DNA from: an uncultured Lachnospiraceae bacterium
GTDB taxonomy: Bacteria; Bacillota; Clostridia; Lachnospirales; Lachnospiraceae
Reading direction: 5' to 3'
Length of the DNA: 64,000 nucleotides
Assembly: GCA_951802115.1 (NCBI GenBank)
Contig: CATOPL010000011.1
Coordinates: forward strand, 1 to 64,000
In this document: positions 28,292 to 59,325 of the stretch, piece after piece
Layout of the letters: every line of letters starts with the position of its first letter
Position numbering within the stretch: position 1 is the first letter of the stretch
Made by a program: the position numbers and the translations under genes
Notes under the pieces: model-generated
Seen by the model: only the letters and a program-made list of their open reading frames with translations
What the model was told of the DNA's origin: nothing
The model's database searches: none

Positions 28292-28478
28292 ATCAGAAAG
28301 CAGGTTTCCTGGCTTACGGTTGCTGATGTAACATACACCAGTTCCTCGCTCCATCTTCCCTTCTCGCCCCGCGGCAATGGGATACGTCAGATTTTGCTCC
28401 CGCTTACAGTGACCGGATCGTTCAGGATTCTCACCTGATTCCCTTTTCTGCCCGATAATCCGGGCAGCACTTTCTGAT
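28292..28478 (-). promoter_or_regulatory. cobalamin (B12) riboswitch aptamer
   Basis: A class-I-like cobalamin riboswitch leader. The B12 box, AAGCCAGGAAACCTGC on the minus strand, is at about 28300-28316. The outer P1 stem is a perfect nine-base pairing of ATCAGAAAG (28470-28478) with CTTTCTGAT (28292-28300). Between them are GGGAATCAGGTGAGAATCC and GGTCACTGTAAGCGGGAGC, standard core segments of the aptamer. It controls the whole downstream cobalamin operon, repressing when adenosylcobalamin is plentiful. A terminator follows at 28128-28159. Confidence 0.93.
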
Positions 28479-28494
28479 GTTTTCTCTGTGAAAA

Positions 28495-43206: not shown

Positions 43207-43611
43207 CTATCCTCTTACCTCTCTCTGAGCAGGTATACGCATATCATTCACCTGCCTGCTTGCACCGTCAAAAGCCTCCCGCAGCTCAGACAGAATATGA
43301 CGAATACGTCCAATCTCCTCCTGCTTTCTCTCTCTTCCGGCCTTCACTACACTCAGGTCATAAATCAGATACTCATAAATCCGCTTCAGATCCCAGCTGA
43401 TCTGATACTGCATATCAAGAATTTCTATCAAATAACGAACAATCTTCGAAACACGTTTCAGACAGTCATCATAATCATCATAATTTCCATCTATCAGAGA
43501 CTGCTCCGCTCTTATAAGACGTTTAATCGTCTCATCAAATAAAAGCAGCAGGAGCTCTCCATTTGACATGGAATAAATACTTTTTTCTTTATATTTACTG
43601 TATCCGTTCAT
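43207..43611 (-). CDS. fliS: flagellin export chaperone FliS, second copy
   Basis: A 134-residue FliS protein. SMSNGELLLLLFDETIKRLIRAEQSL and AGRERKQEEIGRIRHILSELREAFDGA contain the usual FliS signatures (parts LLLLLFDETIKRL and LSELREAFDG). It binds the flagellin C-terminus and prevents premature polymerisation. Its ATG overlaps the stop of the first fliS by 4 bp. The two copies are clearly paralogous but differ at many places, so they may serve different flagellins. Confidence 0.9.
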   Translation of the reverse strand: MNGYSKYKEKSIYSMSNGELLLLLFDETIKRLIRAEQSLIDGNYDDYDDCLKRVSKIVRYLIEILDMQYQISWDLKRIYEYLIYDLSVVKAGRERKQEEIGRIRHILSELREAFDGASRQVNDMRIPAQREVRG

Positions 43612-44181: not shown

Positions 44182-46896
44182 TCATCCTGAAATCTGAGAA
44201 AGATAACTGGACTGACTGTTAAACTGGTTAATCATACTCTCCATATAAGTAAACTGCGAAATATAACGCTCCTGCTGCGTTTTAAGCGTCAGCTTGAGAC
44301 GTTCAAGCGTCTCATTCATCGTCTTAAGCTGTGTGTAGATCTGATTATCATAAAGAGTCGTCGCTTTCTTTGACGTTCCGGCTATCTCAATCAACGCACC
44401 ATAAGACCCCTTTGAGCCATTGCTGGCATTTTTGGAAGAATAGCGGGTTGCATATGGAGTAAACGCCTCATCTACAACAGTCGCAAGACCTTTTGACACC
44501 TCTCCTCCGCCTGTAAATATATTAGATACCAGCTCCGGATCACTCTGCATTGCCTGTTTGAAAGCCGACTCATTAAATACCAGAGTACCGCCGTCCAGAT
44601 AATCATCTGAATAAGTGATTCCGATCTTTTCCAGATCAGCATAGCTGGCGCCGCTGCTCATCAATTTTGTAAAAATACCCTGCACATCCATACTCAATCC
44701 GCGCATGGTAGAATCATTGTACAGAATTCCCTCTTTCGCCTTTGCTTCCCATTTTTCGATCTCATCTTCGCTCATTTCAGCCTTCTGGGCATCCGTCAGC
44801 ACACCATAGCTGCTGTCAGGACGGGTAGTAACCTGCTTATTGATCTCCTTCACCAGATTATTGAAAGATTCAACAAAGCTTTTCACTCTCTCTGTTGCCC
44901 CGTCTACATCCGCCGCTGCACTGAAGGTAACCGCTGCGGAGGTATCTGCTTTCCATTCTTTATTCAATACAAGACTGTAGCCGTTTGTTGCATCACCCTC
45001 TACCCGGTAACCTTTATGATTCACCAGATTTCCGTCTGCGTCCTTATAAATCTCGCCTTTTACCGCATCTTCTTCGTCAATGTCTATATCATATTCTCCG
45101 GTAACGCTGTTGTAGGCCTTAAAAATACGTTCGTTGGTAGCGCCGTTGACCGAAAACCTTCCTTCTACCGGAACAGAATCTGTATACTCACCGCCAAATA
45201 CACCGGACACCGTAACGCTCATACCTTCCAGATCAAAAGTGTTCGAAGAACGATTCAGAATCACGTCCCCGTTGCCATAGCTGACGGAAATGATTGCGTC
45301 CTGGCCTTCGGTAAAGCTTCCGCCGCCGAAAAGCTTCTCCGCCAGATCAGAATCCAGACTGATGTCTCTGCCTTTTCCCGTCTCACTGGACACCAGCATA
45401 AATTTTCCGGTAGCATTCGAATAGGTCGCCTTTACGCCTGCGTCTGAAGCATTGATCTTTGACAAAATATCGCTGATACTGCTGTTAGCAGTAAGACCTT
45501 TAATTTCCACACCGTTAATCTTAAGATTCAAAGATCCGTCAGATGATGCATACTGTCCAAGATCACCAAGTCTGTCTTTCAGCGCCGACTGAGACAGCTT
45601 TCCGCTCAGATTAATCTTGCTGGATTCTCCGTCCGTAATCCCAAGATTGTTCAGGAGTTCTTTATCTCCTGATCTGATCGATACCGTACTGGAAGTGCCG
45701 GTAACGCTGTCAGATTTTGCGGAGAAAGAAAGCCCTTGATCCTTATCGGCGTTAACAGTCACTGCACCTTTTCCATATGCCAGATCCAAACGCTTCTGAA
45801 GATTGTTCTTCATAAGTTCCAGCTGCTCTTCCGCTGTCTTTCCGGCATAATCTTTTGCCTCATCCGCTGTGATCAGTTCGATCTCCTTCTGATTTCCGTC
45901 AAAGTTGAAAGTCAGCTTCTTACCGGTCAGATATGAAAGCGCTGTCTGTGTATTCAAAGCGCTGTCTGTAAAGGACACCGTCTGTCCGCTTCCAAACTCA
46001 GAAAGAGATAACCCCTTTGATTTTGAATCGTCATCTCCGTCAGGCGCCTTATATCCCAATGCCGTCAGTGCCGAAGAACTTTTTCTGATACCGATACTAT
46101 TGGCAGAACCCGCAGTCTTCTCCTCGATTGTAATGCCTGTACCGTCCGCTTTGGCAACAAACTGAACTGCATCGGAAAGCGTGGTCTCGCCGACTTTCAG
46201 CTCCTGTTGTTCCAGAGATTCGTTCAGCTGGGATGCCAGCTTCCGATAAAACTCTTCCTCCGGCAGGCCGTCGGCGTTCGTATAATCGATCGTCCTGGTC
46301 ACTTCTTTCCCGTCGACCATCTCTTTATATGTGCCTGAGAACTTAAACGTCGTCTCAAAACCAACGCTGCCGTCATCATTGTAATTACCGAAAACAAGCT
46401 GAGTTCCCTGCAGTTTGGAAGATGTCCATTCCGTGCCCAGATCCGTCAGGGTTGTCTGCAGCTTTCCGCCCAGCGCATCAGACTCCCGCATGGATGATGT
46501 AGCCAGCTGTCTGACAGATGTTATGGAGACATTGGCTGCCAGCTCTGAGGAACCTGTCGCTTTTACAAAACAGGTCGATTCATCCTTTCCATGAACGGTA
46601 ATTACGCTTTTGGCAAAAATAGAGGAATCCACCAGACTCTTGCCGGATGAATAACTGAGATAGTCATCAGCCAGCCCCAGAATCTGATCTGTGATACTCT
46701 GATATGCTTCCTGCTTCCATCCCAGCTTTGTAATCTCCGCCTGCTGTGCGATGACTCTGTTATTCGCGTGCAGCGTCATTGCTTCGATGATGGAGTCACG
46801 GTCAATACCGGACACCATACCGCCAAAACCGCGCAGTGATGTATTTCCCAAACTGTTGGAACTTGATACACTGTTTGTACTTGATAAACTTGCCAT
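44182..46896 (-). CDS. fliD: flagellar cap protein FliD (hook-associated protein 2), very long
   Basis: A 904-residue filament cap protein. The N-terminal LRGFGGMVSGIDRDSIIEAMT and the C-terminal MNETLERLKLTLKTQQERY with FTYMESMINQFNSQSSYL are typical D0/D1 ends. It is nearly twice the usual length of about 450-500 residues; the extra sequence lies in the central outward domains (about residues 180-650), with repeated beta-rich modules such as GNGDVILNRSSNTFDLEG. A sigma-28-like promoter lies upstream at 47022-47049. The ATG follows GGAGAG. Confidence 0.93.
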   Translation of the reverse strand: MASLSSTNSVSSSNSLGNTSLRGFGGMVSGIDRDSIIEAMTLHANNRVIAQQAEITKLGWKQEAYQSITDQILGLADDYLSYSSGKSLVDSSIFAKSVITVHGKDESTCFVKATGSSELAANVSITSVRQLATSSMRESDALGGKLQTTLTDLGTEWTSSKLQGTQLVFGNYNDDGSVGFETTFKFSGTYKEMVDGKEVTRTIDYTNADGLPEEEFYRKLASQLNESLEQQELKVGETTLSDAVQFVAKADGTGITIEEKTAGSANSIGIRKSSSALTALGYKAPDGDDDSKSKGLSLSEFGSGQTVSFTDSALNTQTALSYLTGKKLTFNFDGNQKEIELITADEAKDYAGKTAEEQLELMKNNLQKRLDLAYGKGAVTVNADKDQGLSFSAKSDSVTGTSSTVSIRSGDKELLNNLGITDGESSKINLSGKLSQSALKDRLGDLGQYASSDGSLNLKINGVEIKGLTANSSISDILSKINASDAGVKATYSNATGKFMLVSSETGKGRDISLDSDLAEKLFGGGSFTEGQDAIISVSYGNGDVILNRSSNTFDLEGMSVTVSGVFGGEYTDSVPVEGRFSVNGATNERIFKAYNSVTGEYDIDIDEEDAVKGEIYKDADGNLVNHKGYRVEGDATNGYSLVLNKEWKADTSAAVTFSAAADVDGATERVKSFVESFNNLVKEINKQVTTRPDSSYGVLTDAQKAEMSEDEIEKWEAKAKEGILYNDSTMRGLSMDVQGIFTKLMSSGASYADLEKIGITYSDDYLDGGTLVFNESAFKQAMQSDPELVSNIFTGGGEVSKGLATVVDEAFTPYATRYSSKNASNGSKGSYGALIEIAGTSKKATTLYDNQIYTQLKTMNETLERLKLTLKTQQERYISQFTYMESMINQFNSQSSYLSQISG

Positions 46897-47096: not shown

Positions 47097-47891
47097 TTGG
47101 CTATCATTATTACAGTTTCAAACCAGAAGGGCGGTGTGGGCAAAACCACTACATCCGCGGCACTGGCCTCCGGGATCGCTCTGACCGGCAAAAATGTTCT
47201 GGGTATCGATCTGGACCCCCAGGGCAATCTGGGGTTCTGTCTGGGCGGCGGGACTGAGAACCGTTATACGGTCCTGGATGTCTTAAACGGTTCTGTTCCG
47301 GTCGAAGAAGCGCTGGTCGAAAGCGAAACCTGCGATCTTCTGGTCTCCGATATCAGCCTGAGCAGCAACGGTCTGGAAAACATTCCCGGCAGACGTGAAT
47401 ATATCCTTAAAAATGCCATAGCACCTGTGATCGATCGGTATGACTATGTCATCATTGATACTCCGCCGGCACTGAACCTTTTAACGGTTAACGCCTATTC
47501 CACTTCTGACCATCTGATCATTCCCATGGCTTCTGATATTCTCAGCCTGGTCGGACTTGCGCAGCTTAAAGAAACCATTGAATCCGTACGCAGTACCTTT
47601 AATCCGGGTCTGAATATCCTGGGAATTCTGCTCAACAGATTCAATAAGCGCACGCTTCTGGCACGCGATGTTCTCGACATGGCAAGTCAGCTGGCGGAAC
47701 AGATCGATTCGAAGGTGTTCAAAACAAGAATTCGTCCTGGAGTAGCGATTGCAGAGGCTCCGGCCCACGGCGAAAGCATTTTTACATATAATATTAATTC
47801 AGGAGCGGTGCTGGATTACCTGGATTTCATCAGAGAAATCGCACCGGAAATTCATTTGGAATTAAAAAAGGAGGAGTCAGATAATGGCTAA
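47097..47891 (+). CDS. ParA/Soj-type ATPase in the flagellar locus
   Basis: A 264-residue Walker-type ATPase starting at TTG, seven bases after GGAGG. The deviant Walker A KGGVGKTT is at residues 11-18, DLDPQGNLGF is the Walker A' region, and YVIIDTPPALNLLT the Walker B. It is the short Soj type without an N-terminal DNA-binding domain. There is no parB or parS nearby; its partner is instead the ComFB-domain gene, which overlaps its stop by 8 bp. In other bacteria ParA-like ATPases position flagella, pili or chemoreceptor arrays. I infer such a cell-positioning role here. Confidence 0.88.
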   Translation: MAIIITVSNQKGGVGKTTTSAALASGIALTGKNVLGIDLDPQGNLGFCLGGGTENRYTVLDVLNGSVPVEEALVESETCDLLVSDISLSSNGLENIPGRREYILKNAIAPVIDRYDYVIIDTPPALNLLTVNAYSTSDHLIIPMASDILSLVGLAQLKETIESVRSTFNPGLNILGILLNRFNKRTLLARDVLDMASQLAEQIDSKVFKTRIRPGVAIAEAPAHGESIFTYNINSGAVLDYLDFIREIAPEIHLELKKEESDNG

Positions 47892-48519
47892 AAAAACAAA
47901 CAAAACATCACATATACTGGATCTGCTGACAAATGGTCCTGCACCGGAGGTTGGCGGTTCTGCTTCTTCAGGCGGTGTTCAGTCACACACGCCGATCCCC
48001 AAAAAAGTCACTGTCGTAGACGAGGGAAGCCGAAATGATAAGCTTTCTCAGGAGATTCTGAGCAATCTTACAGATGAGCTGGAAAACGAGGTTCTCCAGG
48101 ATTCCAGTACCGTTTCCGATGCGTCTCCTGCAGAACCGGCCGATGCACAGCCACAGGAAACTGCTCCGGTTTCCCCGCAGACAGACACAGTACAGTCTGA
48201 GGAGCTGGATATCGAGCTGGAAATCCTTCCTGATGAGGAAGAGGAAGAATACCATTTTGTCAACGTTATGGAAGAATTGCTCATGAAGCAGGATCTTGAC
48301 AGCATTCTCAGACAGTACGACGTATGCACCTGTCCCCGCTGCAATGCCGACGTGCGTGCGCTCACGCTGACTTCTCTGCCGTCCAAATACGTAGTGATCG
48401 GCAAACGGTCATTCTCACCTGTACTGAACTACTATGAGAATAAATTTAAGATCAGTATGCTGACCGCTCTGAACAGAGCGTGCACGACTGTACGTGAAAG
48501 ACCTCATCACAAGAGATAA
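47884..48519 (+). CDS. ComFB-domain protein with long acidic linker
   Basis: A 211-residue protein. The first 120 residues are disordered-looking and rich in Ser, Pro, Gln and acidic residues. Residues about 124-205 form a ComFB-type domain: VNVMEELLMKQDLDSILRQYDVCTCPRC (parts VNVMEELL and YDVCTCPRC) with a CxCxxC cluster at 148-153, then ALTLTSLPSKYVV. ComFB-domain proteins have been reported to bind cyclic dinucleotides. It is coupled to the ParA gene by an 8-bp overlap and ends at a strong terminator. The N-terminus may be the ParA-interacting tail; this is inference. Confidence 0.75.
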   Translation: MAKKTNKTSHILDLLTNGPAPEVGGSASSGGVQSHTPIPKKVTVVDEGSRNDKLSQEILSNLTDELENEVLQDSSTVSDASPAEPADAQPQETAPVSPQTDTVQSEELDIELEILPDEEEEEYHFVNVMEELLMKQDLDSILRQYDVCTCPRCNADVRALTLTSLPSKYVVIGKRSFSPVLNYYENKFKISMLTALNRACTTVRERPHHKR

Positions 48520-48619: not shown

Positions 48620-49849
48620 TTATATTGCCAGTAATACAATCTCCGCCGGTCCCCACTGCCATCCATTACTTCTGAGATAAAACCGGTAATCCGGATTCAT
48701 ATCTGATATCATTCTGGGAATCTTCCAGATATCTTCATTATTGTGGTAAACCGATATCAGCAGCCGCGGCTGCTCTTCCCGGATATGCCTCTCGCAACCT
48801 AACAGAGCGTCCTGTTCCGCCCCTTCAATATCCATTTTAATTAAAGTTATCTTTTCATCAATGTCGCTGTCCAGACTCACAATCTCGATCTCTGTCCCTG
48901 AATGGTCGTCTGTAATTTTATTAATCGTTGACAGCGGGCCGGAAGTCACATAACTGCCCATACTGTTTTTACTGCCCACCGCTTTATTTCTGTATTCAAT
49001 ATCAGGATACTGAGCCAGGTTTTTCTTCATTTCTTTCACACTGGACGGATCAATTTCATAGCAGAATATTTTCTTATACTTGCCATAAGTGCGAATGTAA
49101 TTTTCAACGGAATCACCGGTCCATGCTCCCAGGTCAACCACCACTTCCCGTTCATCGCATCGCACCAGATCCAGATCAAAATAGTCTGTAAAATTACCTT
49201 CTTTCATGACATTGATGTACTCCAGATCAAACGTAAGCCAGTTATACAGCATACTGCAGAGGACAATTTTTGATCTCCAGTCCCCCAGCCTGTGATACAG
49301 CCATAGAAAGTCCTTTCTGTGCTCTTTCAGGGCTGTCACTCTGTTTACAATAACATCATACCGATCAGCGGCCGTATCCAGAGTTCCCCACATTTCACTG
49401 TATTCCTGATAATAGATACAGAACTTTTTTATCAGCTCTTCTCCCTGACCCAGCAAAGACTCTTTTGCCTTTTTCACAATTACGTCAAAATCCACAAAGC
49501 AGATATAGTCCATCAGCTTTAGAAATTTCTCATCCCAGACATTCTTTGCATAATATCTCCGCTCCAGAATCTGTGTCATACCGTCTTTCCAATCGCTGTA
49601 GCATCCTGCCAGTTCTTCTCTGCATTCAAAATGCATCATTTTCTTTTCCAGGCACTCCAGATCACAGAAGCTGACTTTTTTGCTTCCTGTCAGTTCAAAA
49701 TTGAGCGTTTCGATCACATAGCCCAGCTCCCATGTCAGACGGATCATCTCTTCCTCATAATCCTTTTCGCACAGAATTCGAATACGGTCTATTACTGTGC
49801 CTGCTTTATCAAGCTCCCCTTTTATCCGGTTATACTCCGCCCTGTTCAT
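48620..49849 (-). CDS. FkbM-family methyltransferase
   Basis: A 409-residue protein from the ATG at 49849, which has AAAGGAGG eight bases upstream. The C-terminal half (about 215-405) is an FkbM-type SAM-dependent O-methyltransferase: EVVVDLGAWTGDSVENYI is the SAM-binding motif, FCYEIDPSSVKEMKKNL the second, and LIKMDIEGAEQDALLG is diagnostic. The first 200 residues are helical and unrecognised. It is the last gene of the minus-strand island and probably methylates a sugar or an attached group of the glycan. Confidence 0.85.
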   Translation of the reverse strand: MNRAEYNRIKGELDKAGTVIDRIRILCEKDYEEEMIRLTWELGYVIETLNFELTGSKKVSFCDLECLEKKMMHFECREELAGCYSDWKDGMTQILERRYYAKNVWDEKFLKLMDYICFVDFDVIVKKAKESLLGQGEELIKKFCIYYQEYSEMWGTLDTAADRYDVIVNRVTALKEHRKDFLWLYHRLGDWRSKIVLCSMLYNWLTFDLEYINVMKEGNFTDYFDLDLVRCDEREVVVDLGAWTGDSVENYIRTYGKYKKIFCYEIDPSSVKEMKKNLAQYPDIEYRNKAVGSKNSMGSYVTSGPLSTINKITDDHSGTEIEIVSLDSDIDEKITLIKMDIEGAEQDALLGCERHIREEQPRLLISVYHNNEDIWKIPRMISDMNPDYRFYLRSNGWQWGPAEIVLLAI

Positions 49850-49894
49850 TCCGTTCACCTCCTTTAACGATTTTTATATATTTATTGATCATGA

Positions 49895-51721
49895 TCAATC
49901 TCCCCTTTCCGCCCGGAAAATTTCCTTTATAGCTTCCACAAAGGAGTCATTTTCCTCCTGCTTTCTGACCGCAAGCCTGATATACTGTTTTCCATTATTT
50001 ATTTTAGGGGTCAGATCTTTAATTAACATATGATATTTTATCAATAATATTTTTGTTAATTGTGCCGAAGAAAGGCCGCCCCTAATTTCGCACATCACAA
50101 AATTCGCCTGCGTAGGATAGACTCCCAGTCCTGGAATTTGCTTTAAAGTATCTGTAAAATTCCTGCGCACATCTTTAAATCTGCCGATCGCCTCTGCATA
50201 TTCTCCGTTGTATTTTTCAGCAATCTGCATATAAAATTCCGCAAAAGAATTCATGTTCCAGATGGAGACGTTCTTCTTCAGCCTTTTTATCAAATCCGTC
50301 CGGGCAGAAGCCAGTATACCCAGACGTAGCCCTGGGACTCCGTAAGATTTGGATATACTTTTTACTACGATCAGATTGTGATACTGCTCTAGAATCCTGT
50401 TGTCTATCAGCGTATTGTCCAGGCTGTCCGCAAAATCGACAAAACTCTCGTCTACAAGCAGATCAATCTTTTTCTTTTCACACCACCGGCACAATTCCAA
50501 CAGGCCTTCTTTTTCAATAAAATTACCGCTGGGATTATCCGGATTGACCAAAACAAGCATGTCAATCTTCTTTCCGGAAAAGAATTTCATAATATGATCA
50601 GCCTGATATCGAAAGTTCAATGAAGCCGTATCAAAAATAACTCTGCGATCCCTGCCGCACCTGTTCGGATACTCTTCAAACGTCGGCCTGATAAAACCGA
50701 CCGTCCCTTCATACAGATCAAAAACGCTTTTGATTAATTCCGCCGCGCCGTTTCCGGTTATTATATAATCCTGTTTAACGCCAAAATTCTTGGCGGCCAG
50801 CAATGAATTCACATACATACCGGAAGGATACTGAGTAAGCAACGCATCAAAATTACTCTTGATTTCATCCATTAATCTCTGCGGAGGAAAATAGGGATTT
50901 ACCAGATAACAATAATCCAGCAAATGCGGATATCTCCAGTATCCGCCATAGCGCTTCTGCATCTTTTGAACCCTGGCTTCCTCACTGTCGGCAAAAATAG
51001 ATTCCGCAATATCAAGATCCTGTATATCATCAATTTCATACCAGCGCTGCCCTGCCAGACGTTTGGCCTTGATCTCAGGATTATCCAGTATCGTAATCAC
51101 CTTCAAAACCTGTTCATAATATTCATTATTTCCAAGCGCCATCGTATACGCCTCCAGAAAAGGCACATAATAATTGCAGGAAAAATGTCTGCTGAATTTA
51201 TAAATATTCACTGTTTTATAATAGAATGGTATATCCTCAAAGACGATTTTTCTGCCGCTGATAAACGCCTGAATATTATCTTCATCATCCAGTTTGACGA
51301 CCGTTCCGTCCATCCAGTTCTCGTATTTATCCACCAGAGCCAGCGTCTCTCTCTCATCTTCAAGCAGCCAGGTCAGCACACTGTCTTCAAAGATCAGATC
51401 TGACTCCAGCAATAAGGTATCGTCTTCCTTCAGCTGTTCTTTCGCCAGAGCCAGAGAATAAATATTGTTTGTTTTATAATAAACAGAATTATCAATATAT
51501 TCAACAGGCGTCTTCACATCCAGAGAGGCAATATAATCCATCAGCTTTTTCCCTTCGTAACCGACCACGATCACGATCCTCTTCAGATTCAGCGCGTCCA
51601 GCTGAGCCAGCATCTTTTCAATCAACGTAACGCCATTGACTCTGATCATACATTTTGTATGATTCATTGTCAGATCTTTCAGCCTCTTTCCCATTCCGGC
51701 TGCCAAAATAACCGCCTGCAT
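49895..51721 (-). CDS. fused nucleotidyltransferase (LicC/PntC-like) and CobD/HisC-like PLP enzyme
   Basis: A 608-residue two-domain enzyme. Residues 1-245 are a sugar-phosphate-type nucleotidyltransferase: LAAGMGKRL at 6-14, HTKCM at 21-25, and the metal-binding ESD at 106-108, closest in style to choline-phosphate or aminoethylphosphonate cytidylyltransferases. Residues about 265-605 are a fold-type I PLP enzyme: LVNPDNPSGNF at 391-401, LLVDESFVDF at 421-430, and the PLP lysine at 458 in KSISKSYGVPGLRLG, like CobD or HisC. Such fusions occur in flagellin-modification loci (to my recollection PA1090 of Pseudomonas aeruginosa and CD0242 of Clostridioides difficile). It could make an amino-phosphate by decarboxylation or transamination and activate it with CTP. 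Confidence 0.85.
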   Translation of the reverse strand: MQAVILAAGMGKRLKDLTMNHTKCMIRVNGVTLIEKMLAQLDALNLKRIVIVVGYEGKKLMDYIASLDVKTPVEYIDNSVYYKTNNIYSLALAKEQLKEDDTLLLESDLIFEDSVLTWLLEDERETLALVDKYENWMDGTVVKLDDEDNIQAFISGRKIVFEDIPFYYKTVNIYKFSRHFSCNYYVPFLEAYTMALGNNEYYEQVLKVITILDNPEIKAKRLAGQRWYEIDDIQDLDIAESIFADSEEARVQKMQKRYGGYWRYPHLLDYCYLVNPYFPPQRLMDEIKSNFDALLTQYPSGMYVNSLLAAKNFGVKQDYIITGNGAAELIKSVFDLYEGTVGFIRPTFEEYPNRCGRDRRVIFDTASLNFRYQADHIMKFFSGKKIDMLVLVNPDNPSGNFIEKEGLLELCRWCEKKKIDLLVDESFVDFADSLDNTLIDNRILEQYHNLIVVKSISKSYGVPGLRLGILASARTDLIKRLKKNVSIWNMNSFAEFYMQIAEKYNGEYAEAIGRFKDVRRNFTDTLKQIPGLGVYPTQANFVMCEIRGGLSSAQLTKILLIKYHMLIKDLTPKINNGKQYIRLAVRKQEENDSFVEAIKEIFRAERGD

Positions 51722-51734
51722 CGCCTACCTCCTG

Positions 51735-52853
51735 TTATCCGTAAAATTCCTCAAGCGCTTCGAATGATGTGATTCCATAATTCTGTGGTATCGCCGCTTC
51801 TGCAAGATCTTTTCCCACAAAACGATCGTCGTCATAATAGGCCTTCCCGGAAACCCCGCAATACCATTGTAAAATTTTATCCATATGACCTGCCGGAACG
51901 CCGGCCAGTTCTGCAAACCCTTTTAAAATACACAATCCATACGGAAAGTCTTCCAGAAAATAGCGGGAGTTAAAATCCGGGACATAAAAACCGTTTTGCC
52001 GCACCATGGGAGATAAAATATTTTTCAGACTGTGAATACTCTGCATTTTGTGAGTCATTTCCGTTGCCGTCCGAACTTCGTAATGCTGCTTCAGCGGCTT
52101 TACTCCCTGCAGATTCATATGAGCCGCCGTTTCAAAAGCCCGGCATACAGACTGCAACTCCTCGTCACAGCCAAGCAGCAGCTCTGAAGCAGAATCCGTC
52201 CACTCCGCGTAAAAATACAGATTGCGATCCCACGTCATTCCCCTTTGATAATTTCCAAACAGATCATAAAGTCTGGAAGTATGAAGAATCGGATTGGATG
52301 GTGTAAGCGTCACTGTCAGGTAATTGTCCAGCGGCTCGCAATCCATTTCAAAAAGTCCGGACATCAGGCGGGCGATCCTCTTGGTTTCCCTGCAAGGAAC
52401 TGCTGCTATACGGACTCCCTTTTTCTTGGCCACATTTACACTGCTTCCGTATACTGTAAGTCTGGAAATGTGGGTGACGCGGTCAAAACCTGCAAGTATT
52501 ACTCCCTTTTCCAACATTTCTCTGCAGAAAAATTCAACCCCTCCTGTACCGGGCATTATACAGAATATCGTTCCGGCATCTAAATATGGCAGACACCTTT
52601 GAATCTCCGTCTCCGTCAAAAAAGACGGAACCGTCAGGAAAACAACTTCCGCATTTGCCAGCGCTTCTTCTGCATTCCCTGTGACTTTTTCTAACACTGT
52701 ATGCACTGTGATTTTCTTCTCCGTATCATAACTGGACAACCCCTTTTGCCATTTCTCCGGATGTCCGGTTAATACAGCAACCTGATTTTTTCCCGCCAGG
52801 TCAGCCGCGACTGCCGTCCCGATATTCCCTCCGCCAATCACACAAATCTTCAT
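51735..52853 (-). CDS. opine dehydrogenase-like NAD(P) enzyme
   Basis: A 372-residue protein of the NAD/NADP octopine/nopaline dehydrogenase family. The N-terminal Rossmann motif is CVIGGGNIGTAVAADLAG at about residues 4-21, EVVFLTVPSF follows, and the C-terminal catalytic domain has TPSNPILHTSRLYDLFG with a probable catalytic histidine. Family members couple an amino acid amine to a 2-oxo acid by reductive amination. It is 13 bp from the NTase-PLP gene and overlaps licD by 4 bp, so it should act in the same pathway, perhaps making an N-carboxyalkyl amine. Substrate is unknown. Confidence 0.8.
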   Translation of the reverse strand: MKICVIGGGNIGTAVAADLAGKNQVAVLTGHPEKWQKGLSSYDTEKKITVHTVLEKVTGNAEEALANAEVVFLTVPSFLTETEIQRCLPYLDAGTIFCIMPGTGGVEFFCREMLEKGVILAGFDRVTHISRLTVYGSSVNVAKKKGVRIAAVPCRETKRIARLMSGLFEMDCEPLDNYLTVTLTPSNPILHTSRLYDLFGNYQRGMTWDRNLYFYAEWTDSASELLLGCDEELQSVCRAFETAAHMNLQGVKPLKQHYEVRTATEMTHKMQSIHSLKNILSPMVRQNGFYVPDFNSRYFLEDFPYGLCILKGFAELAGVPAGHMDKILQWYCGVSGKAYYDDDRFVGKDLAEAAIPQNYGITSFEALEEFYG

Positions 52854-53740
52854 TTCTTTATATACCTCTTAAGATATTCGCCATACGGCATGTCCGGGTC
52901 AAAAATAACCCCCTCATGATCTGACGTCCCTTGAACAAACTGATGATAGTCTCCATAACATTGCGTCAAAACTTTGTCATATTCCGCCGGCGCCGGAATC
53001 TGTATATGCTCGAACGGAAGATATATAATGTCTTTCATCCAGTCTTTATAGACGCTTTTACTTCCGGTTCCGTTTAACTCACTGGAAATATAATTGACCT
53101 TCTGCGTACTGCCAAACTGCGAAAGACAGAAAGCGTCAAATATTTCACACTTTTTCCAGATGTCTTTCTGCATGAAATCTAAAAAAAACTCAGTAAAACG
53201 GCCCAGTTTTCCCTGTTCCAGCGCATCCAGTATCAAAAACGGATCATAAATCGCGTTACAAAGCAGCCTTTGAAGCATATCTACCATAAGAAATTCTTCA
53301 TTTACGCCGTCGTACACACTGTCAAAGGGAAAAATATCAATGAAAATTCCCTGATGAAGGCCTTCTGGCGGATCAGTAAATTCAATCGCCGTCGTCCGAT
53401 TATCCATAATCTTGGAAAAATTGTATATTCTTTCATCTGTATAACAATTCTGATAAAAATAAGGCTCCGTAACCTCCTGCTGCGCGATCACCTTAAACTT
53501 CTCATAATCATCCCGAAACATCACGACGTCAAGGTCGTCGTCCCAGGGAATAAATCCCTGATGACGCACCGCTCCTAAAAGCGTTCCGTAATACGCATAA
53601 TATACCAGCCCATGTTTTTTACAGATTTCATCAAATTTTTCCAGTATCTCAAGCTCTTTTGCCCACACCTTTTTCCGTTTTTCCGTCACCAGAAAACCGG
53701 AACGTACTTCTTCCCTGTAAAACGACGCCGCAAACTCCAT
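52850..53740 (-). CDS. LicD-family phosphotransferase, copy 2
   Basis: A 296-residue LicD protein. HGLVYYAYYGTLLGAVRHQG and FIPWDDDLDVVMFRDDYEKF at residues 44-83 form the nucleotidyltransferase-fold core with the acidic triad. Members transfer phosphocholine or similar groups from CDP-carriers to surface glycans. The gene is closely similar to its upstream neighbour at 53827-54717, with strong conservation of the first 90 residues (EEVRSGFLVTEKRKKVWA) and lower similarity later. It is coupled to the opine dehydrogenase by a 4-bp overlap. Confidence 0.9.
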   Translation of the reverse strand: MEFAASFYREEVRSGFLVTEKRKKVWAKELEILEKFDEICKKHGLVYYAYYGTLLGAVRHQGFIPWDDDLDVVMFRDDYEKFKVIAQQEVTEPYFYQNCYTDERIYNFSKIMDNRTTAIEFTDPPEGLHQGIFIDIFPFDSVYDGVNEEFLMVDMLQRLLCNAIYDPFLILDALEQGKLGRFTEFFLDFMQKDIWKKCEIFDAFCLSQFGSTQKVNYISSELNGTGSKSVYKDWMKDIIYLPFEHIQIPAPAEYDKVLTQCYGDYHQFVQGTSDHEGVIFDPDMPYGEYLKRYIKK

Positions 53741-53826
53741 CCTTTATCCTCCGATACTTTCTCAAATATTGATTTCATTCCTTTTCTGCCCCAAAATATG
53801 CCACCCGCCTTTATATAAATACGCGT

Positions 53827-54717
53827 TTATCCTTTTATATATTTTGAAAAATATTCATCGTACGGCATATCCGGGTCAAAAACAATCCCTTCATGGGCAG
53901 ATTTTCCTTGGACAAACTGATGCCAGTTTCCATATTCCTGCGTCAGAATCTTGTCATATTCCGCCGGCACCGGAATCTGTAAATGTTCAAAAGGAAGATA
54001 AATAATATCTTTCAGCCAGTCATTGGGCACGCTTTTACTAATATCGGATATCTCATAAAGTATCACATTAGATTTTTTTGTTTTTCCAAACTGTGAAAGA
54101 CAGAACTCCTCAAATATTTCCACCCTCTGCGTAACATCTTTCTTCATAAAATCCAACAGAAAAGCAGAAAATCCTCCCTCAAATCCGTTCTGCTCAATCT
54201 CTTCCAATATACTGGCCGGCTTTGTAACTGCCGCCCAAAGCGCTCTTTGAATCTTTGCAATCGCAGAAAATTCTGTATTGATACCGTCGCAGACACTGTC
54301 AAAAGGAAAAATATCAATAAAGATTCCCTGATTAAAGTCCGCCGATACATCCTCAAACTCAATGGCAGTCGTTCTGCAGTCTCTGATCTTGGAAAAGCCG
54401 CACGTCATATCCTCTGTACAAAGGTTCTGGAAATAATATGGGCTGATTACTTCCTGCGCCGCAATCGCCTTAAACTTTTCATAATCATCCCGAAACATAA
54501 TAACATCAATATCGTCATCCCAGGGGATAAATCCCTGATGGCGCACTGCTCCCAGAAGCGTGCCGTAATACGCATAATACACCAGTCCGTATTTTTTACA
54601 GATCCGGTCGAACAGCTCCAGAATCTCAAGTTCAACCGCCCACACCTTTTTACGCTTTTCTGTCACCAGAAAGCCGGAACGCACCTCTTCTTTAAAAAAC
54701 GACTGCTCTACTCCCAT
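53827..54717 (-). CDS. LicD-family phosphotransferase, copy 1
   Basis: A 296-residue LicD protein from the ATG at 54717; the longer in-frame start lacks a ribosome binding site. YGLVYYAYYGTLLGAVRHQG and FIPWDDDIDVIMFRDDYEKF show the acidic active site. It is a tandem paralogue of the next gene, so the two probably add the same or a similar phospho-group at two positions or to two glycans. It starts 23 bp after the CgeB-like gene and ends 86 bp before copy 2. Confidence 0.9.
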   Translation of the reverse strand: MGVEQSFFKEEVRSGFLVTEKRKKVWAVELEILELFDRICKKYGLVYYAYYGTLLGAVRHQGFIPWDDDIDVIMFRDDYEKFKAIAAQEVISPYYFQNLCTEDMTCGFSKIRDCRTTAIEFEDVSADFNQGIFIDIFPFDSVCDGINTEFSAIAKIQRALWAAVTKPASILEEIEQNGFEGGFSAFLLDFMKKDVTQRVEIFEEFCLSQFGKTKKSNVILYEISDISKSVPNDWLKDIIYLPFEHLQIPVPAEYDKILTQEYGNWHQFVQGKSAHEGIVFDPDMPYDEYFSKYIKG

Positions 54718-54740
54718 CGTACCCTGTATTCCTTTCTGTC

Positions 54741-55901
54741 TCAAAAATCAAACATCTCCCGCACCCGATGCCGGTACGTATGTTCCGCCGCCACTTTATC
54801 ATGCCCGCTTCTGGCAATGGCTTCACGCTCTTCTTCATGTTCGAGATAATAATCAATTTTCTGCAGCAAATCTTCTTTGCTTTCATAATAGACAAAATCT
54901 TCTCCCGGTACAAAGAAATCCAGAAAATCAGCCTGGAAATTACTGAGCAGAAAACCGCCGCAGCCCATAATGTCGAAAGCCCTCAGCGGTATACCGCTTT
55001 TCATTCCGCGAAGGGTAATATTCAGATTGATCTTACTTTGCATGAAAATCTGCGGCATTTCTTCATAATAATCAGCCGGTCCGTGATTGCAGAGATTCGG
55101 AAGCGTAAAATCTTTATAATAAGTGAAAAAATCAACCGTATGATTCCTGGCGATCGCATCCAGCAGGTCGATTCGTTCTACAGCCGTAATTCTGCGGTTG
55201 ATAATGGCATTCGCATAGCTCCACTCGTCTGATACTATGGATCCTGGTTCCCGCTTGATCGGATATGCCCTGGACAGATCCTCCATAATCGGGCTTAGCA
55301 CTTCTTCTATAAAATTATACCCCTGTACCTTCATCTGCGCCGCTATCAAAGCGTTCAGATACCCTTTTGTATAATCTGACAAAAAGGGCATCATCTGATC
55401 AAAATAATTGGCTTTTTCCAGATAAAGCGAACCGACAAAAGAAATGTCATAAGCATACTGCAGCGGCTTCTCCAGACTGGCTCTGACGGCATCCAGACGT
55501 TTTGTATCGGCAGCCATAGGCATATAATGCACTGTGGAAATCCCGGCGTTGTGAAACTCCAGATACAGCTCTTTATCAAAAACATAAATAATATTACATG
55601 GATTCAGTACCGTTCTGGAGTAAAGCCGGCCATAGGGACTGTCATAGATCCAGGAAATATAACGTATTTTTTCTCTGTTGCAGAAATTGGAGATCGCCGG
55701 ATAATAATTGACGGTAAATATTACATCCGGCGCTTTTTCACGTAGCACAGTACGCAGTTTATCTTCAACCTCCGGAAGGTCCGCATAGGTTTTTTCCATG
55801 AAAAAAAACGGCGGATAGATCAGGCTGTGTCCTTCCTGAAGGAATGCCTCTTCCAGATCTTTTTTTCCTGTACTGCTCCACTCCAGGTATAATATTTTCA
55901 T
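54741..55901 (-). CDS. CgeB-like glycosyltransferase, array copy A
   Basis: A 386-residue protein from the ATG at 55901, with GGAGG eight bases upstream. The N-terminal domain starts MKILYLEWSSTGKKDLEEAF and has VIFTVNYYPAISNFC and YISWIYDSPYGRLYS; the C-terminal GT-B domain has KINLNITLRGMKSGIPLR, DIMGCGGFLLSNFQADF and VPGEDFVYYESKEDL. It belongs to the CgeB/Glyco_trans_1_2 type of nucleotide-sugar transferases. The last 100 residues are almost identical to the other copies. It precedes the LicD genes and follows a GT2 gene by 24 bp. Confidence 0.85.
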   Translation of the reverse strand: MKILYLEWSSTGKKDLEEAFLQEGHSLIYPPFFFMEKTYADLPEVEDKLRTVLREKAPDVIFTVNYYPAISNFCNREKIRYISWIYDSPYGRLYSRTVLNPCNIIYVFDKELYLEFHNAGISTVHYMPMAADTKRLDAVRASLEKPLQYAYDISFVGSLYLEKANYFDQMMPFLSDYTKGYLNALIAAQMKVQGYNFIEEVLSPIMEDLSRAYPIKREPGSIVSDEWSYANAIINRRITAVERIDLLDAIARNHTVDFFTYYKDFTLPNLCNHGPADYYEEMPQIFMQSKINLNITLRGMKSGIPLRAFDIMGCGGFLLSNFQADFLDFFVPGEDFVYYESKEDLLQKIDYYLEHEEEREAIARSGHDKVAAEHTYRHRVREMFDF

Positions 55902-55925
55902 TTCAAGTACCTCCAACCATTGTTT

Positions 55926-56960
55926 TCACATACATTCTCTTAAAAACTGATTGATAAAACCCGCCTGCTCATCTGTAAGTTCCATATCCAGAAGCTCTAA
56001 AAGCGCGTAATCCCAGGCTGTTGCCGTACAGTTCATATATCCGTTTTTGCGGATATCCGGAAAGAGTTTCAGCGTCATGTCCACATAAAACCGCAGCTCC
56101 TCCTTCTGCAGAGTGCACCCTTTCTGAAGCAGCATCATCAGGCTTAATCCAAGTCCCCAGTTCCAGAACTGATATTCCAGTTCCGGATAATATTTTTCAA
56201 GCAGCCCTCTGGCCGACATATCTTCCATCATAGCCAGCCACACGCGCGGATTATCCCATCGGTGTGTACGCTCCCAGTCGCTTCGCATCGTACTTCCGGA
56301 TGAGAGATACCAGACATAGAGACATTCGTCAAGAAAATAATGTCTTGTCTCGTACAGTCTGACTGGCACCACAAAGGAAGGCTCTTCAAACATCAGATGC
56401 TCGGCAAAGGTAATCTGATGTTTCTGAATCAAAGATGTCCGGTACAGCTTCTGCTGCGAACCATACGTCACCTGTCCGTTGACCTGCAGAAGAAACTCTT
56501 TCTTTTTCTCTTCTGTATCCAGTTCAATCAACCGGCTCTGTGTCCCTTTTTTCAATTCGACATTTGCTCCGCGGTCTGTGACGTTTTCTCCTGTAAATTC
56601 AACCACATCCGCATCATATTCTTTCGCAGCCTGATAACAGTGCTCCAGCGCTTCCTTCAGAAGCCAGTCGTCTGCATCGCAGAAGCAGAGATACTCGCCG
56701 CCTGCATAAGAAACGCCTGCATTTCGGGCCCCCCCTTGCCGCATGTTTTCCTCCAGAAAAATAACCATAACGGTGTCCGGAAAACGCTGTTCATATTTCA
56801 GCAGCAGATTCCGTGTCTCACCATGATCCGTTGACGCATCGTCTACCAGAATAATTTCCATGCTGTCAATGCCGAGTGTCTGATTCACAAGCTGTTCTAC
56901 GCACTTATCCAGATACGCAGCTGCATTATAGCACGGAACCACCACACTTACCTTTTTCAT
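55926..56960 (-). CDS. family 2 glycosyltransferase, subtype I, copy 1
   Basis: A 344-residue GT-A enzyme: VSVVVPCYNAAAYLDKCVEQ at the start, IILVDDASTDHGET, the RQGGARNAGVSYAGGEYL acceptor region and the metal-binding FCDADDWL. The C-terminal 150 residues are helical with conserved aromatic residues. It resembles most closely the gene at 62766-63812 (both have GGARN and FCDADDW), rather than the subtype II genes. It alternates with CgeB-like genes, 24-32 bp apart, in one operon. Confidence 0.9.
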   Translation of the reverse strand: MKKVSVVVPCYNAAAYLDKCVEQLVNQTLGIDSMEIILVDDASTDHGETRNLLLKYEQRFPDTVMVIFLEENMRQGGARNAGVSYAGGEYLCFCDADDWLLKEALEHCYQAAKEYDADVVEFTGENVTDRGANVELKKGTQSRLIELDTEEKKKEFLLQVNGQVTYGSQQKLYRTSLIQKHQITFAEHLMFEEPSFVVPVRLYETRHYFLDECLYVWYLSSGSTMRSDWERTHRWDNPRVWLAMMEDMSARGLLEKYYPELEYQFWNWGLGLSLMMLLQKGCTLQKEELRFYVDMTLKLFPDIRKNGYMNCTATAWDYALLELLDMELTDEQAGFINQFLRECM

Positions 56961-56992
56961 CTATGCCTCTCCTCTTTTACCTGTTTCGCTTT

Positions 56993-58162
56993 TCACCCGC
57001 CGAGCATGCCGAGCATCTCTCTGACCCGGTGCCTGTACGTATGTTCCGCCGCAACTTTGTCATGACCGTTCCTGGCAATGACTTTTCGTTCTTCTTCATG
57101 TTCCAGATAATAGTCTATTTTCTGCAGCAGGTCTTCTTTGCTTTCATAATAGACAAAATCCTCTCCTGGTACAAAATGCTCCAGAAAACCTGACTGGAAA
57201 TTACTGATCAAAAAGCCTCCGCAGCCCATAATATCGATCGCACGAAGTGGAATACCGCTTTTCATACCGCGAAGAGTAATATTGAGATTGATTTTACTCT
57301 GCTTAAAGATCCGCGGCATCTGATGATAATATTCCGCAAAACCGTGATTACGCAGATTGGGAAGTGAAAAACCTTTATACTGTGTAAAGAAATCAACGGT
57401 ATGATTTCTCGCAATCGCATCCAGCAGATCGATTCGTTCTACTGCTGTGATCCTGTGATTAATAATATAATTTGCATAATAATATTCCTTCGTCTCAAAG
57501 CATCCTGGTTCATGCTCAATCGGACATGCGCGTGACAGATCGTCAAGAACCGGTCCCAGAACGTCTTCAATAAAATTATACCCCTGTATCTTCAGCTGAG
57601 CTGCCATCAGTGCATCCAGATACCCTTTTGTAAAATCCGACAGAGAAGAAAAGATCCCATTGATAAAACCGTCATCCTCTACATACAAAGACCCAAGAAA
57701 AGAAACATCATACAAATACGGCAGAGAATCCGACGGAGCTTCCCCAATCGCATCCAGACGCTCCGTGTTGGCCGCCAGAGGCAGATAATGCACCGTTTTA
57801 ATACCCGCATTATGGAATTCCAGATACAGCTCTTTATCGAATACATAGATCACATTGCACGGATTCGTAACGGTCACGGAATAAAGCCGGCGGTAGGGAC
57901 TGTCATACGTCCAGGAAATGTAGCGAAGCTTATATTTTTCGCAGAGGTTTGAGATTGCCGGATAATAGTTCACGGAAAATGCAATATCCGGCGCTTCCTC
58001 GCGCAGCAGGGAAGCCATCAGACGCTCTACTTCCGGAAGATCTCTGTATGTTTTTTCTTCAATGGAAAACGGCGGATAGATCAGGCTGTGTCCTTCTGCA
58101 ACAAACGCCTCTTCCAGGTCTTTTCTGCCCGCACTGCTCCAAGCCATCATTAATATTTTCAT
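56993..58162 (-). CDS. CgeB-like glycosyltransferase, array copy B
   Basis: A 389-residue paralogue of copy A. It opens MKILMMAWSSAGRKDLEEAF and shares IAFSVNYYPAISNLC, YISWTYDSPYRRLYS, DIMGCGGFLISNFQSGF and the C-terminal HDKVAAEHTYRHRVREML. The part around residues 150-220 (SLYVEDDGFINGIFSSLSD) differs from other copies and may set the acceptor. It lies between two GT2 genes of different subtype. Confidence 0.85.
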   Translation of the reverse strand: MKILMMAWSSAGRKDLEEAFVAEGHSLIYPPFSIEEKTYRDLPEVERLMASLLREEAPDIAFSVNYYPAISNLCEKYKLRYISWTYDSPYRRLYSVTVTNPCNVIYVFDKELYLEFHNAGIKTVHYLPLAANTERLDAIGEAPSDSLPYLYDVSFLGSLYVEDDGFINGIFSSLSDFTKGYLDALMAAQLKIQGYNFIEDVLGPVLDDLSRACPIEHEPGCFETKEYYYANYIINHRITAVERIDLLDAIARNHTVDFFTQYKGFSLPNLRNHGFAEYYHQMPRIFKQSKINLNITLRGMKSGIPLRAIDIMGCGGFLISNFQSGFLEHFVPGEDFVYYESKEDLLQKIDYYLEHEEERKVIARNGHDKVAAEHTYRHRVREMLGMLGG

Positions 58163-58233
58163 TTTTTATCACTACCTTTATTATCGTTCGACAACTATTC
58201 TCCCGGGGTCAGCACTCCGGTTCGTTGCTGTTT

Positions 58234-59271
58234 TTATAAATCATTTGACACTCCCCAGCTCTTTTTAGCCTGACTTATCATCTGCTGAAATTCTGTCTCA
58301 CTGACAGATGAATAAAGAATTTTCAAAAAGAACTGATATAATTCTGAAAAGTCTGATGCATACCGATTCTCTTTATAATCCGGAATATGAATTGCAAGAA
58401 ATTCACGTTCCAGCTGAAAAAACGAAAACGGAGCAACATCAAACCGGAAAATCATCAATTTTACAAAACCGGCAGCATCGCTCAAGGCATCATACTCCAG
58501 AATGTCCCCATACTGCTCAAAAAGACCGCGTCTGTGATAATCTTCCCACTTCATCATCTGTACTGTAAACCAGTCCAGATGGTACATCTCGTTCCTGGAC
58601 ATAACTGTTCCATGCGGATTCATATAATAATGATATAAATATTCCTTGACTACACAGACACCCTCTGCATAGAGATGCAGAAGCGGATACCAGTACATAT
58701 CTTCATACATCAGCCCTTCCGGAAAAAAGATATTGTTCCTGAGCAGAAATTCTCTGCGAATGATTTTTGCATGTACTCCGGGTCCCAGAAGCATATTTTT
58801 AAGCAATGTCTGTGAAACATCTTTTGTGTCTGCAGCAAGATATTGCACACTCCCTTCCCCGCGGTTCTTTTCCGCATAAACAAGAGTTTCGGAAGAATCC
58901 CTCACCCAACCGCAGACTGCCACATCGCAGGCACACTGCAGCACAGAACAATAAAGTTTCTCAAAAAAATCCGGCTCCAGCCAGTCATCCGCATCCACAA
59001 AAGAAATCCAGTCCGCAGAGGCGACAGAAAGCCCCAGATTTCTGGCCGCTCCCTGTCTGCGGTTCACCTCCTGGCGCAGAAGAAGAATATTGTCAGGAAA
59101 CTGCTGTTCCCATTTCTGCAGGCAATTCCAGGTATCATCGGTGGAAGCGTCGTCCACACAGATAATTTCCAGATCCCTGATCCCGATGGTCTGGTCAATC
59201 ATCGAAGTCATACACCTGTCAATATAAGAAGCCACATTATAACATGGAATAATCACACTTATTTTTCGCAT
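58234..59271 (-). CDS. family 2 glycosyltransferase, subtype II, copy 1
   Basis: A 345-residue GT-A enzyme: ISVIIPCYNVASYIDRCMTS, ICVDDASTDDTWNCLQKWE, NRRQGAARNLGLSVASADW and the metal-binding FVDADDWLEPDFF. Its nearest relative in the window is 61674-62708. The C-terminal domain has MYEDMYWYPLLHLYAEG and EYDALSDAAGFVKLMIFRFD, which recur in that gene. It lies 71 bp upstream of CgeB-like copy B. Confidence 0.9.
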   Translation of the reverse strand: MRKISVIIPCYNVASYIDRCMTSMIDQTIGIRDLEIICVDDASTDDTWNCLQKWEQQFPDNILLLRQEVNRRQGAARNLGLSVASADWISFVDADDWLEPDFFEKLYCSVLQCACDVAVCGWVRDSSETLVYAEKNRGEGSVQYLAADTKDVSQTLLKNMLLGPGVHAKIIRREFLLRNNIFFPEGLMYEDMYWYPLLHLYAEGVCVVKEYLYHYYMNPHGTVMSRNEMYHLDWFTVQMMKWEDYHRRGLFEQYGDILEYDALSDAAGFVKLMIFRFDVAPFSFFQLEREFLAIHIPDYKENRYASDFSELYQFFLKILYSSVSETEFQQMISQAKKSWGVSNDL

Positions 59272-59325
59272 ATACCTCTCCTGTTCTGAAAGCAGATGAA
59301 GCGCACTTTGCGACGTTCAAATTTC

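Follow-up and report, generated by a model that had tools for sequence, protein, structure and literature searches.

A nucleotidyltransferase-PLP fusion, an opine dehydrogenase and LicD proteins as a candidate pathway for opine-type phosphoethanolamine tailoring of a Lachnospiraceae glycan

We analyzed a 64,000-nucleotide stretch (the window) from an uncultured Lachnospiraceae bacterium (GenBank assembly GCA_951802115.1, contig CATOPL010000011.1, positions 1 to 64,000). A row of genes at 48620..54717 encodes a nucleotidyltransferase fused to a pyridoxal phosphate (PLP) enzyme, an octopine-type opine dehydrogenase (OpDH), two LicD phosphotransferases, and an FkbM-family methyltransferase. Here, we propose a CDP-activated phosphoryl tailoring pathway made up of the fusion, OpDH, and LicD, which would place a secondary-amine, opine-type phosphoethanolamine onto a glycan, in this genome most likely that of flagellin; we put the probability of this reading at roughly 0.5. 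The core observations are the gene identities, their recurring co-location, the swap of dehydrogenase and transferase types between loci, the conserved catalytic-type residues, and the predicted OpDH fold, while all of the pathway chemistry is predicted from sequence.

In the proposed pathway, the PLP domain would decarboxylate O-phospho-L-serine (or -threonine) to phosphoethanolamine (or aminopropanol phosphate), and the fused LicC/PntC-like domain would convert phosphoethanolamine to CDP-ethanolamine. OpDH would join a 2-oxo acid, probably pyruvate, to the free amine of either the phosphate or the CDP form, giving N-(1-carboxyalkyl)ethanolamine phosphate. LicD, as expected for its family, would then transfer the CDP-bound group to a hydroxyl of a sugar. 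The OpDH step would be optional: many fusion loci lack OpDH or carry another dehydrogenase.

Gene content of the island

All five open reading frames (ORFs) lie on the minus strand, and their Pfam and NCBIfam matches confirm the identities given in the initial annotation. The core of the module is the fusion, a single 608-aa ORF (49895-51721) with NTP_transf_3 and Aminotran_1_2 domains. Beside it are OpDH (51735-52853, 372 aa; PF02317, 110.5 bits, cut-off 30) and the phosphotransferases LicD A (52850-53740; PF04991, 149.6 bits) and LicD B (53827-54744; 149.9 bits; cut-off 22.6 for both), the latter starting at either ATG 54717 or TTG 54744. LicD A and LicD B share 67% identity as tandem relatives, and both contain an acidic WDDDxDV stretch; the sole PDB match of LicD A is FKRP (2.6e-4). 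OpDH and LicD A overlap by 4 bp, and the gaps are 13 bp between fusion and OpDH, 86 bp between LicD A and LicD B, 36 bp between methyltransferase and fusion, and 23 bp from LicD B to the next glycosyltransferase gene if LicD B begins at ATG 54717. The spacing first described (4-24 bp for most pairs) broadly holds, but "tightly packed" applies to only three of the five junctions. Counts of promoter-like sites (46; shuffles 36.4, sd 5.7) and terminator-like sites (10; shuffles 13.0, sd 4.0) are uninformative.

The FkbM-family methyltransferase (48620-49858; PF05050, 42 bits, cut-off 22.7; TIGR01444, 59.2 bits, cut-off 37.7) had been thought to modify the amine as well, which our searches do not support. 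With phmmer at E<=1e-4, no FkbM relative was found at 105 loci, where a remote relative could escape, and a further loci search at 1e-5 found none besides the window itself. We therefore rejected the methyltransferase as a pathway member; it appears to be an unrelated or local addition that is not conserved with the module.

The nucleotidyltransferase domain

The N-terminal domain of the fusion (aa 1-240; 51002..51721, minus strand) matches NTP_transf_3 at aa 3-122 (44.8 bits, cut-off 27), and in the PDB it scores best against 6pd1 (PntC-AEPT; 4e-14) and 1jyk (LicC; 1.4e-12). In the Treponema denticola protein Tde-PntC, two Glu residues (Glu104 and Glu196) are positioned for contact with the primary amine of 2-aminoethylphosphonate (AEP), while LicC has Asp there (PMC6697681, available text). 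E106 of the fusion aligns with Glu104, and Glu is kept in 94/94 aligned fusions. Unfused nucleotidyltransferases have Asn (loci L156 and L220) or Glu (L192) at this position. Based on the family and the active-site Glu, we infer that the fused LicC/PntC-like domain makes CDP-ethanolamine.

PntC-AEPT (Tde1415) is similar in architecture: as described in the available text, a LicC-like cytidylyltransferase is fused N-terminally to an amine-making PLP enzyme, activation is with CMP, the proposed target is at the cell surface, and Glu occupies the first amine-contact position (PMC6697681). It differs in its PLP domain, which is class V there and class I/II CobD-like here, and an opine dehydrogenase is added here. 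Neither a phosphoenolpyruvate (PEP) mutase nor a class V transaminase is among the 10 proteins scanned at 48620-60480. The initial annotation placed nucleotidyltransferase-PLP fusions in flagellin modification loci, a statement that needs correction: the available text on Clostridioides difficile CD0242 calls it a nucleotidyltransferase and mentions no PLP domain, and the characterized fusion, PntC-AEPT, belongs to phosphonate metabolism.

The PLP domain

The C-terminal domain (aa 251-608; 49895..50971, minus strand) matches Aminotran_1_2 at aa 315-598 (101.8 bits, cut-off 19.7). Against NCBIfam, the fusion scores best with CobD (TIGR01140), at 167.6 bits, below the equivalog cut-off of 290.55; we therefore rejected CobD equivalence and, by that test, call the domain CobD-like rather than CobD. 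Among PDB sequences, the one nearest to the domain is 6oux ("SMUL_1544, a decarboxylase"), which we take to make ethanolamine phosphate from phosphoserine. The top fold matches of the fusion model are 6oux and CobD, from a weak model with a predicted local distance difference test (pLDDT) score of 68. In a PLP tree of 35 rows, for which the program warns that long branches meet, the 14 fused domains fall on the CobD side together with 6oux (100/100). A W-N-x-N motif is found in 79/80 fusions, and the PLP-lysine motif is retained in the fusion. This suggests that the PLP domain is probably an O-phospho-L-serine/threonine decarboxylase. Its closest relatives, SMUL_1544 and CobD (6oux, 1lc5), are decarboxylases of cobamide biosynthesis and, unlike the fusion, standalone proteins; the sub-cut-off score is a second difference from CobD. 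At one other locus (L094:10001-11821), the fusion is split into two ORFs, hence either broken or a sequencing error.

Alternatively, the domain could be a transaminase that makes serinol phosphate, or a similar compound, from a keto-phosphate, with the remainder of the pathway unchanged. In the same tree, HisC 8bj1 joins three unfused PLP partners (98/97; L156, L219, and L220), which also score higher against HisC than against CobD and are perhaps transaminases; these partners might feed another amine, e.g., serinol phosphate. Jejuni capsule precursors, in the available text of PMC13276843, also speak for this option. However, the fused domains group with SMUL_1544 on the CobD side and not with HisC, so that we regard a transaminase in the fusion as unlikely and prefer a decarboxylase.

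The opine dehydrogenase

OpDH matches the PDB sequence 3c7a at 4.3e-37. Its AlphaFold2 model (pLDDT 91.9) has a two-domain fold closest to octopine dehydrogenase (TM-score 0.88 to 3iqd) and CENDH, followed by metallophore opine dehydrogenases. His191, Arg297, and Asp302 align with 3c7a residues and are kept in 37/37 aligned sequences, lower-scoring ones included; the Asp of octopine dehydrogenase is presumably Asp329. The available text on octopine dehydrogenase describes a His-Asp dyad, His212, and Arg324 (PMC2924402), and OpDH shares the two-domain fold, the dyad, and the Arg sensor with octopine dehydrogenase and CENDH (3c7a, 1bg6). It differs from them in its bacterial surface-glycan context and in its amine, which is predicted to be an aminoalkyl phosphate. 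The predicted OpDH reaction is an NAD(P)H-dependent reductive condensation of an amine with a 2-oxo acid.

Recurrence of the fusion with dehydrogenases and transferases

A scan of genome contigs gave 468 stretches with fusion relatives, of which the best 80 (59-66% identity) were kept. OpDH occurs in 36 of these 80 contigs, always on the fusion's strand and within 200 bp in 34. A second type of dehydrogenase, unrelated to OpDH, was found in 16/80 contigs, 13 of them within 130 bp. This is the ornithine-cyclodeaminase/mu-crystallin (OCD) type (PF02423, checked for two members), with 4m54, "putative ornithine cyclodeaminase," as nearest PDB entry; we take 4m54 to be SbnB, with similar secondary-amine chemistry. 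The two dehydrogenase types occur together in only two of the 80 contigs, fewer than expected (hypergeometric P(<=2) 0.003, with kinship of loci uncorrected).

Forty-five loci have flanks of 5 kb or more on both sides; in 31 of them, a dehydrogenase lies within 5 kb (OpDH 22, OCD-type 10, both 1). The transferases show a similar swap: within 5 kb, 24 loci have LicD, 11 have a TagF-type protein and none has both, hence 35 have one. LicD is not more frequent at fusion loci with OpDH than at those without (13/22 vs 11/23, Fisher p 0.55); therefore, LicD and OpDH are each tied to the fusion and not to each other. All but one of the 11 TagF-type proteins score above the PF04464 cut-off; the exception (L117) shows only a 60KD_IMP domain. 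Near the fusion at three loci (L074:14708-16843, L115:7783-9942, and L146:11482-13404), a PF04464 TagF-type domain is fused to a 60KD_IMP (YidC-like) membrane domain; L117:7499-9751 is similar, with the membrane domain alone detected. Minor partners include GNAT (cluster 17, four loci) and ATP-grasp proteins (cluster 28, two loci), with one member of each checked, and an S-adenosylmethionine (SAM) methyltransferase directly after the fusion at L039; each of these could act on the amine or the acid.

Because the 80 contigs kept are those whose fusions most resemble the window's, 36/80 overstates the general OpDH rate. In a draw of 100 genomes from the family, the fusion exceeds 500 bits in 15 (weaker matches, in all 100, are HisC/CobD-like and nucleotidyltransferase domains). 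Three of these 15 loci have a dehydrogenase: OpDH at one, which is the window itself, and the OCD type at two (G098 and G077). The dehydrogenase is therefore an optional add-on, commoner near fusions like the window's. LicD is present at five of the 15 loci and a clear TagF-type protein at two. A plasmid collection yielded eight fusion matches; the one examined, from Fusobacterium (H7), has fusion and LicD with no OpDH match. Contigs with both fusion and OpDH are filed under Bacillota, Spirochaetota, Actinomycetota, and Desulfovibrio, but are mostly metagenome-assembled, so misplacement is possible. The initial annotation proposed a neighborhood search for co-occurrence of the five families. 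Its core mostly held up, as fusion with OpDH and fusion with LicD or TagF-type proteins recur; the low dehydrogenase rate in the family draw and the lack of FkbM conservation did not fit it.

Glycan islands gather modifying genes, and LicD and OpDH could simply be near the fusion for this reason. LicD is common in the genome (nine matches), and it is no commoner at OpDH-bearing than at OpDH-lacking fusion loci. Yet OpDH is rare and still abuts the fusion on one strand, LicD and TagF-type proteins alternate, and the lower-scoring OpDH loci (L198-L210, several of them short) have a fusion or LicD in 0/13 within the stretch seen. An ordinary mixed island is thus highly improbable, and we favor a dedicated tailoring module.

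OpDH contexts and the aminoethylphosphonate operon

The rarity of strong OpDH matches is seen in several genome draws, which overlap and in sum comprise 12 OpDH genomes. The class draw has 8/391 genomes above 300 bits (115/391 at E<=1e-10, the remainder at or below 159 bits), the order draw 7/295 (four common to the class draw), and the family draw 2/100 above 200 bits (12/100 at E<=1e-3). In the genus itself, 2/17 genomes match at E<=1e-3, and of these the window's own genome is the strong match. A class draw around a Treponema genome (1/198) and a phylum draw of G783 (1/20) returned only the seeds.

In five of the 12 genomes (G000, G301, G360, G411, and G608), the fusion is adjacent to OpDH. 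Two others (G017 = L156 and G778 = L220) have separate nucleotidyltransferase, PLP enzyme, and LicD genes, and two (G713 = L219 and G257 = L197) have a PLP enzyme, LicD, and a TagD-type cytidylyltransferase, with an OCD-type gene as well at L197. In one genome (G434 = L192), OpDH is in an AEP operon with a nucleotidyltransferase and LicD. The last two have none of these sets: in G200 (L193), OpDH is beside Wzx and TagF-type genes, and the other is G413 (L196). At L197:4623-9350, behind two LicD genes, we observed a class V aminotransferase, OCD-type and octopine-type dehydrogenases, and a fusion of a TagD-like cytidylyltransferase to a Gfo/Idh oxidoreductase; the same TagD-Gfo/Idh fusion follows OpDH at L219:7381-8727.

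The L192 row comprises a nucleotidyltransferase, PEP mutase (TIGR02320, 413.8 bits, cut-off 319.55), class V aminotransferase, phosphonopyruvate decarboxylase (TIGR03297, 442.7 bits, cut-off 312.5), OpDH, and LicD, which we take to be the known AEP gene set. In the tree, the L192 OpDH nests inside the fusion-linked OpDH clade (99/94 and 95/84), at this single locus. The simplest reading of this placement is that OpDH acts on a 2-aminoethyl-P group, a phosphonate there and a phosphate beside the fusion; accordingly, the fused PLP domain is predicted to make phosphoethanolamine.

OpDH might instead act elsewhere, on a sugar amine or on AEP from a phosphonate locus on contig C2 of the same genome, and merely share the island. 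The genome's one PEP mutase match (C2:89209-90060) is within an NTP_transf_3-CTP_transf_like-PEP mutase triple fusion (L160:6807-8813, about 89.2-91.2 kb), whose neighbors are a thiamine pyrophosphate (TPP) enzyme, Wzx, Wzy, and four LicD matches in the stretch. This appears to be a second, phosphonate-type tailoring locus, and AEP therefore stays a possible OpDH substrate. Also in favor of action elsewhere, two of the 12 OpDH genomes have no fusion or cytidylyltransferase in the stretch seen, and most fusion loci of the family draw have no OpDH. However, although five of the 12 genomes, this one included, have a PEP mutase, it is beside OpDH only in G434, and seven have no match at E<=0.001; moreover, in 34/80 contigs, OpDH is directly next to the fusion and on its strand. 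We thus consider action elsewhere rather improbable, and action on the amine made by the fusion the better reading. An interpretation of the C2 nucleotidyltransferase as a choline-kinase fusion was wrong, given its domains. A fusion of NTP_transf_3 to a choline/ethanolamine kinase-like domain does occur at L110:15436-17223, downstream of a fusion-OpDH pair.

The plasmid collection has six records with OpDH relatives, and the four examined show other contexts. In Burkholderia and Paraburkholderia, the neighbors are oxidase, dioxygenase, and tyrosinase genes, and in Serratia they are siderophore genes. An O-antigen cluster around the Proteus relative (H63) is unlikely: the region, which carries no annotation, has no fusion or LicD match, and its neighbors resemble the Serratia set by eye.

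Flagellar setting

FliD, the flagellar filament cap, is encoded beside the island (44182..46896, minus strand; PF07195, 117.8 bits; PF02465, 28.1 bits), as is FliS nearby (43207-43611; PF02561, 72.1 bits). Beyond the window, contig C11 has two flagellin genes on the island's strand (65262-66071 and 66257-67123; PF00669, 136.9 and 115.8 bits) and a further LicD (69427-70113). Based on the flagellin genes and FliD/FliS, we read the region as a flagellin-modification island.

This location would also suit a pathway like that of C. difficile type A. In that case, a phospho-amino acid (phosphoserine/threonine) would be activated with its carboxylate intact, the PLP domain would act as a transaminase or have no activity, OpDH would form a true opine at the alpha-amine, and the methyltransferase would N-methylate. 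Type A glycans of C. difficile and b-type glycans of Pseudomonas aeruginosa flagellin carry N-methyl- or N,N-dimethyl-threonine via phosphate, with CDP-threonine as proposed donor, and octopine dehydrogenase itself uses an amino acid. These glycans resemble our prediction in a phosphodiester-linked amino compound and a nucleotidyltransferase step; they differ in threonine with its carboxylate and a TagF-like transferase, and the available text of both papers mentions no PLP fusion or opine dehydrogenase (PMC10714395, PMC11833859). Against such a pathway, the fusion retains the PLP-lysine motif and a conserved CobD/SMUL_1544-type domain, an OpDH of the same clade is within the AEP operon, where the product has no carboxylate, and neither a CD0241-type phosphatase nor a TagF-type CD0244 is among the 10 proteins scanned at 48620-60480. 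An amino acid with its carboxylate therefore seems an improbable substrate here, and we retain phosphoethanolamine.

The remainder of the island consists of glycosyltransferase genes on the minus strand: a DUF3880 + Glyco_trans_1_2 protein (54741..55916), the first of the repeated glycosyltransferases, then profile matches to GT2 (55926-56960), DUF3880 (56993-58162), GT2 (58234-59271), and DUF3880 (59326-60480). This alternation of DUF3880 and GT2 genes at 54741-60480 suggests serial duplication within the flagellar glycan island. Between FliD and the island, on the opposite strand (47097-48519, plus), are a ParA/MinD-type ATPase (AAA_31, 164 bits; CbiA, 88 bits) and a ComFB-domain protein, and near FliS (41599-42771, minus) is an NTP_transf_5 "uncharacterised nucleotidyltransferase." Farther away, the window encodes a separate CobD-like protein (20271-21359, minus; TIGR01140, 290.1 bits, just under the 290.55 cut-off), a porphobilinogen deaminase/tetrapyrrole methylase/HemD protein (22832-25222), and a cobalamin riboswitch (28282-28489, minus), which together form a cobamide-type locus.

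Evidence against the proposed pathway

Several observations count against our reading. In the fusion, the sub-cut-off CobD score, the poor model, the long branches of the PLP tree, and the HisC-like scores of the unfused partners, all given above, are joined by the second amine-contact position, where the alignment places Tyr202, adjoining Glu203, at Tde-PntC Glu196. In OpDH, the equivalent of His212 is conserved. The available text states that His212 of octopine dehydrogenase coordinates the carboxylate of arginine and that agmatine, without a carboxylate, also binds (PMC2924402). Ethanolamine has no carboxylate, so conservation of this His is unexpected, an objection that agmatine binding softens. 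In the survey, 30/80 fusion contigs have neither dehydrogenase, although some contigs are short, and the same is true within 5 kb for 14 of the 45 full-flank loci and for 12/15 loci of the family draw, where five stretches are short. The alternation of transferases is imperfect: within 9.5 kb, LicD is at 26 of the 45 loci, TagF-type at 13, and both at one. Flagellin genes are found near the fusion at a minority of loci (6/105 searched), and the C2 locus leaves AEP as a competing OpDH substrate.

Discussion

We interpret the pathway as a variant of Lic/Pnt-type tailoring and not as a new category. In the Lic-1 phosphocholine system (LicA-LicB-LicC-LicD), LicD likewise moves a CDP-activated amino-alcohol phosphate to a glycan, as described in the available text (PMC10434233). 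Lic-1 imports choline, whereas the amine here is predicted to come from the PLP enzyme and an N-carboxyalkyl step is added. The route outlined in the initial annotation stands in its PLP-nucleotidyltransferase-LicD logic and in an opine enzyme acting on the amine, as supported by recurrence, the AEP operon, and a listed polysaccharide residue, but not in its FkbM part. In a sharpened form, CDP-ethanolamine or a close analogue would be optionally N-carboxyalkylated by either of two dehydrogenases and moved by LicD or a TagF-type transferase.

The listed residue, N-[(R)-1-carboxyethyl]ethanolamine phosphate, is one that we assume to be a Proteus residue. It appears, as R-Cet-EtnP, among the abbreviations of a figure legend on Klebsiella pneumoniae capsules and Proteus mirabilis O-polysaccharides (PMC9630907, available text); it is the residue predicted here, although from Gram-negative polysaccharide. 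In the open-licence PMC literature, we found no paper on N-(1-carboxyethyl)ethanolamine phosphate biosynthesis and none joining an opine dehydrogenase with LicD.

More broadly, anaerobic gut bacteria may share a modular pathway in which either of two unrelated opine-type dehydrogenases turns a CDP-/CMP-activated aminoethyl phosphate or phosphonate into its N-carboxyalkyl form for flagellin and surface polysaccharides. This generalization, to which we give somewhat less than even odds, is undescribed in the open-licence papers searched. It would explain how N-(1-carboxyethyl)ethanolamine phosphate is made and predicts a phosphonate twin, N-(1-carboxyalkyl)-2-aminoethylphosphonate. If true, a residue listed for bacterial polysaccharides, for which our searches found no genes, would gain concrete enzymes, and given the spread of fusion and OpDH, one set of assays would annotate many loci. 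Opine chemistry is known mainly from metabolism and metallophores, and would here enter cell-surface decoration. The carboxylate-bearing secondary amine would alter the charge of phosphoethanolamine, a change that host lectins, antibodies, and phages may read.

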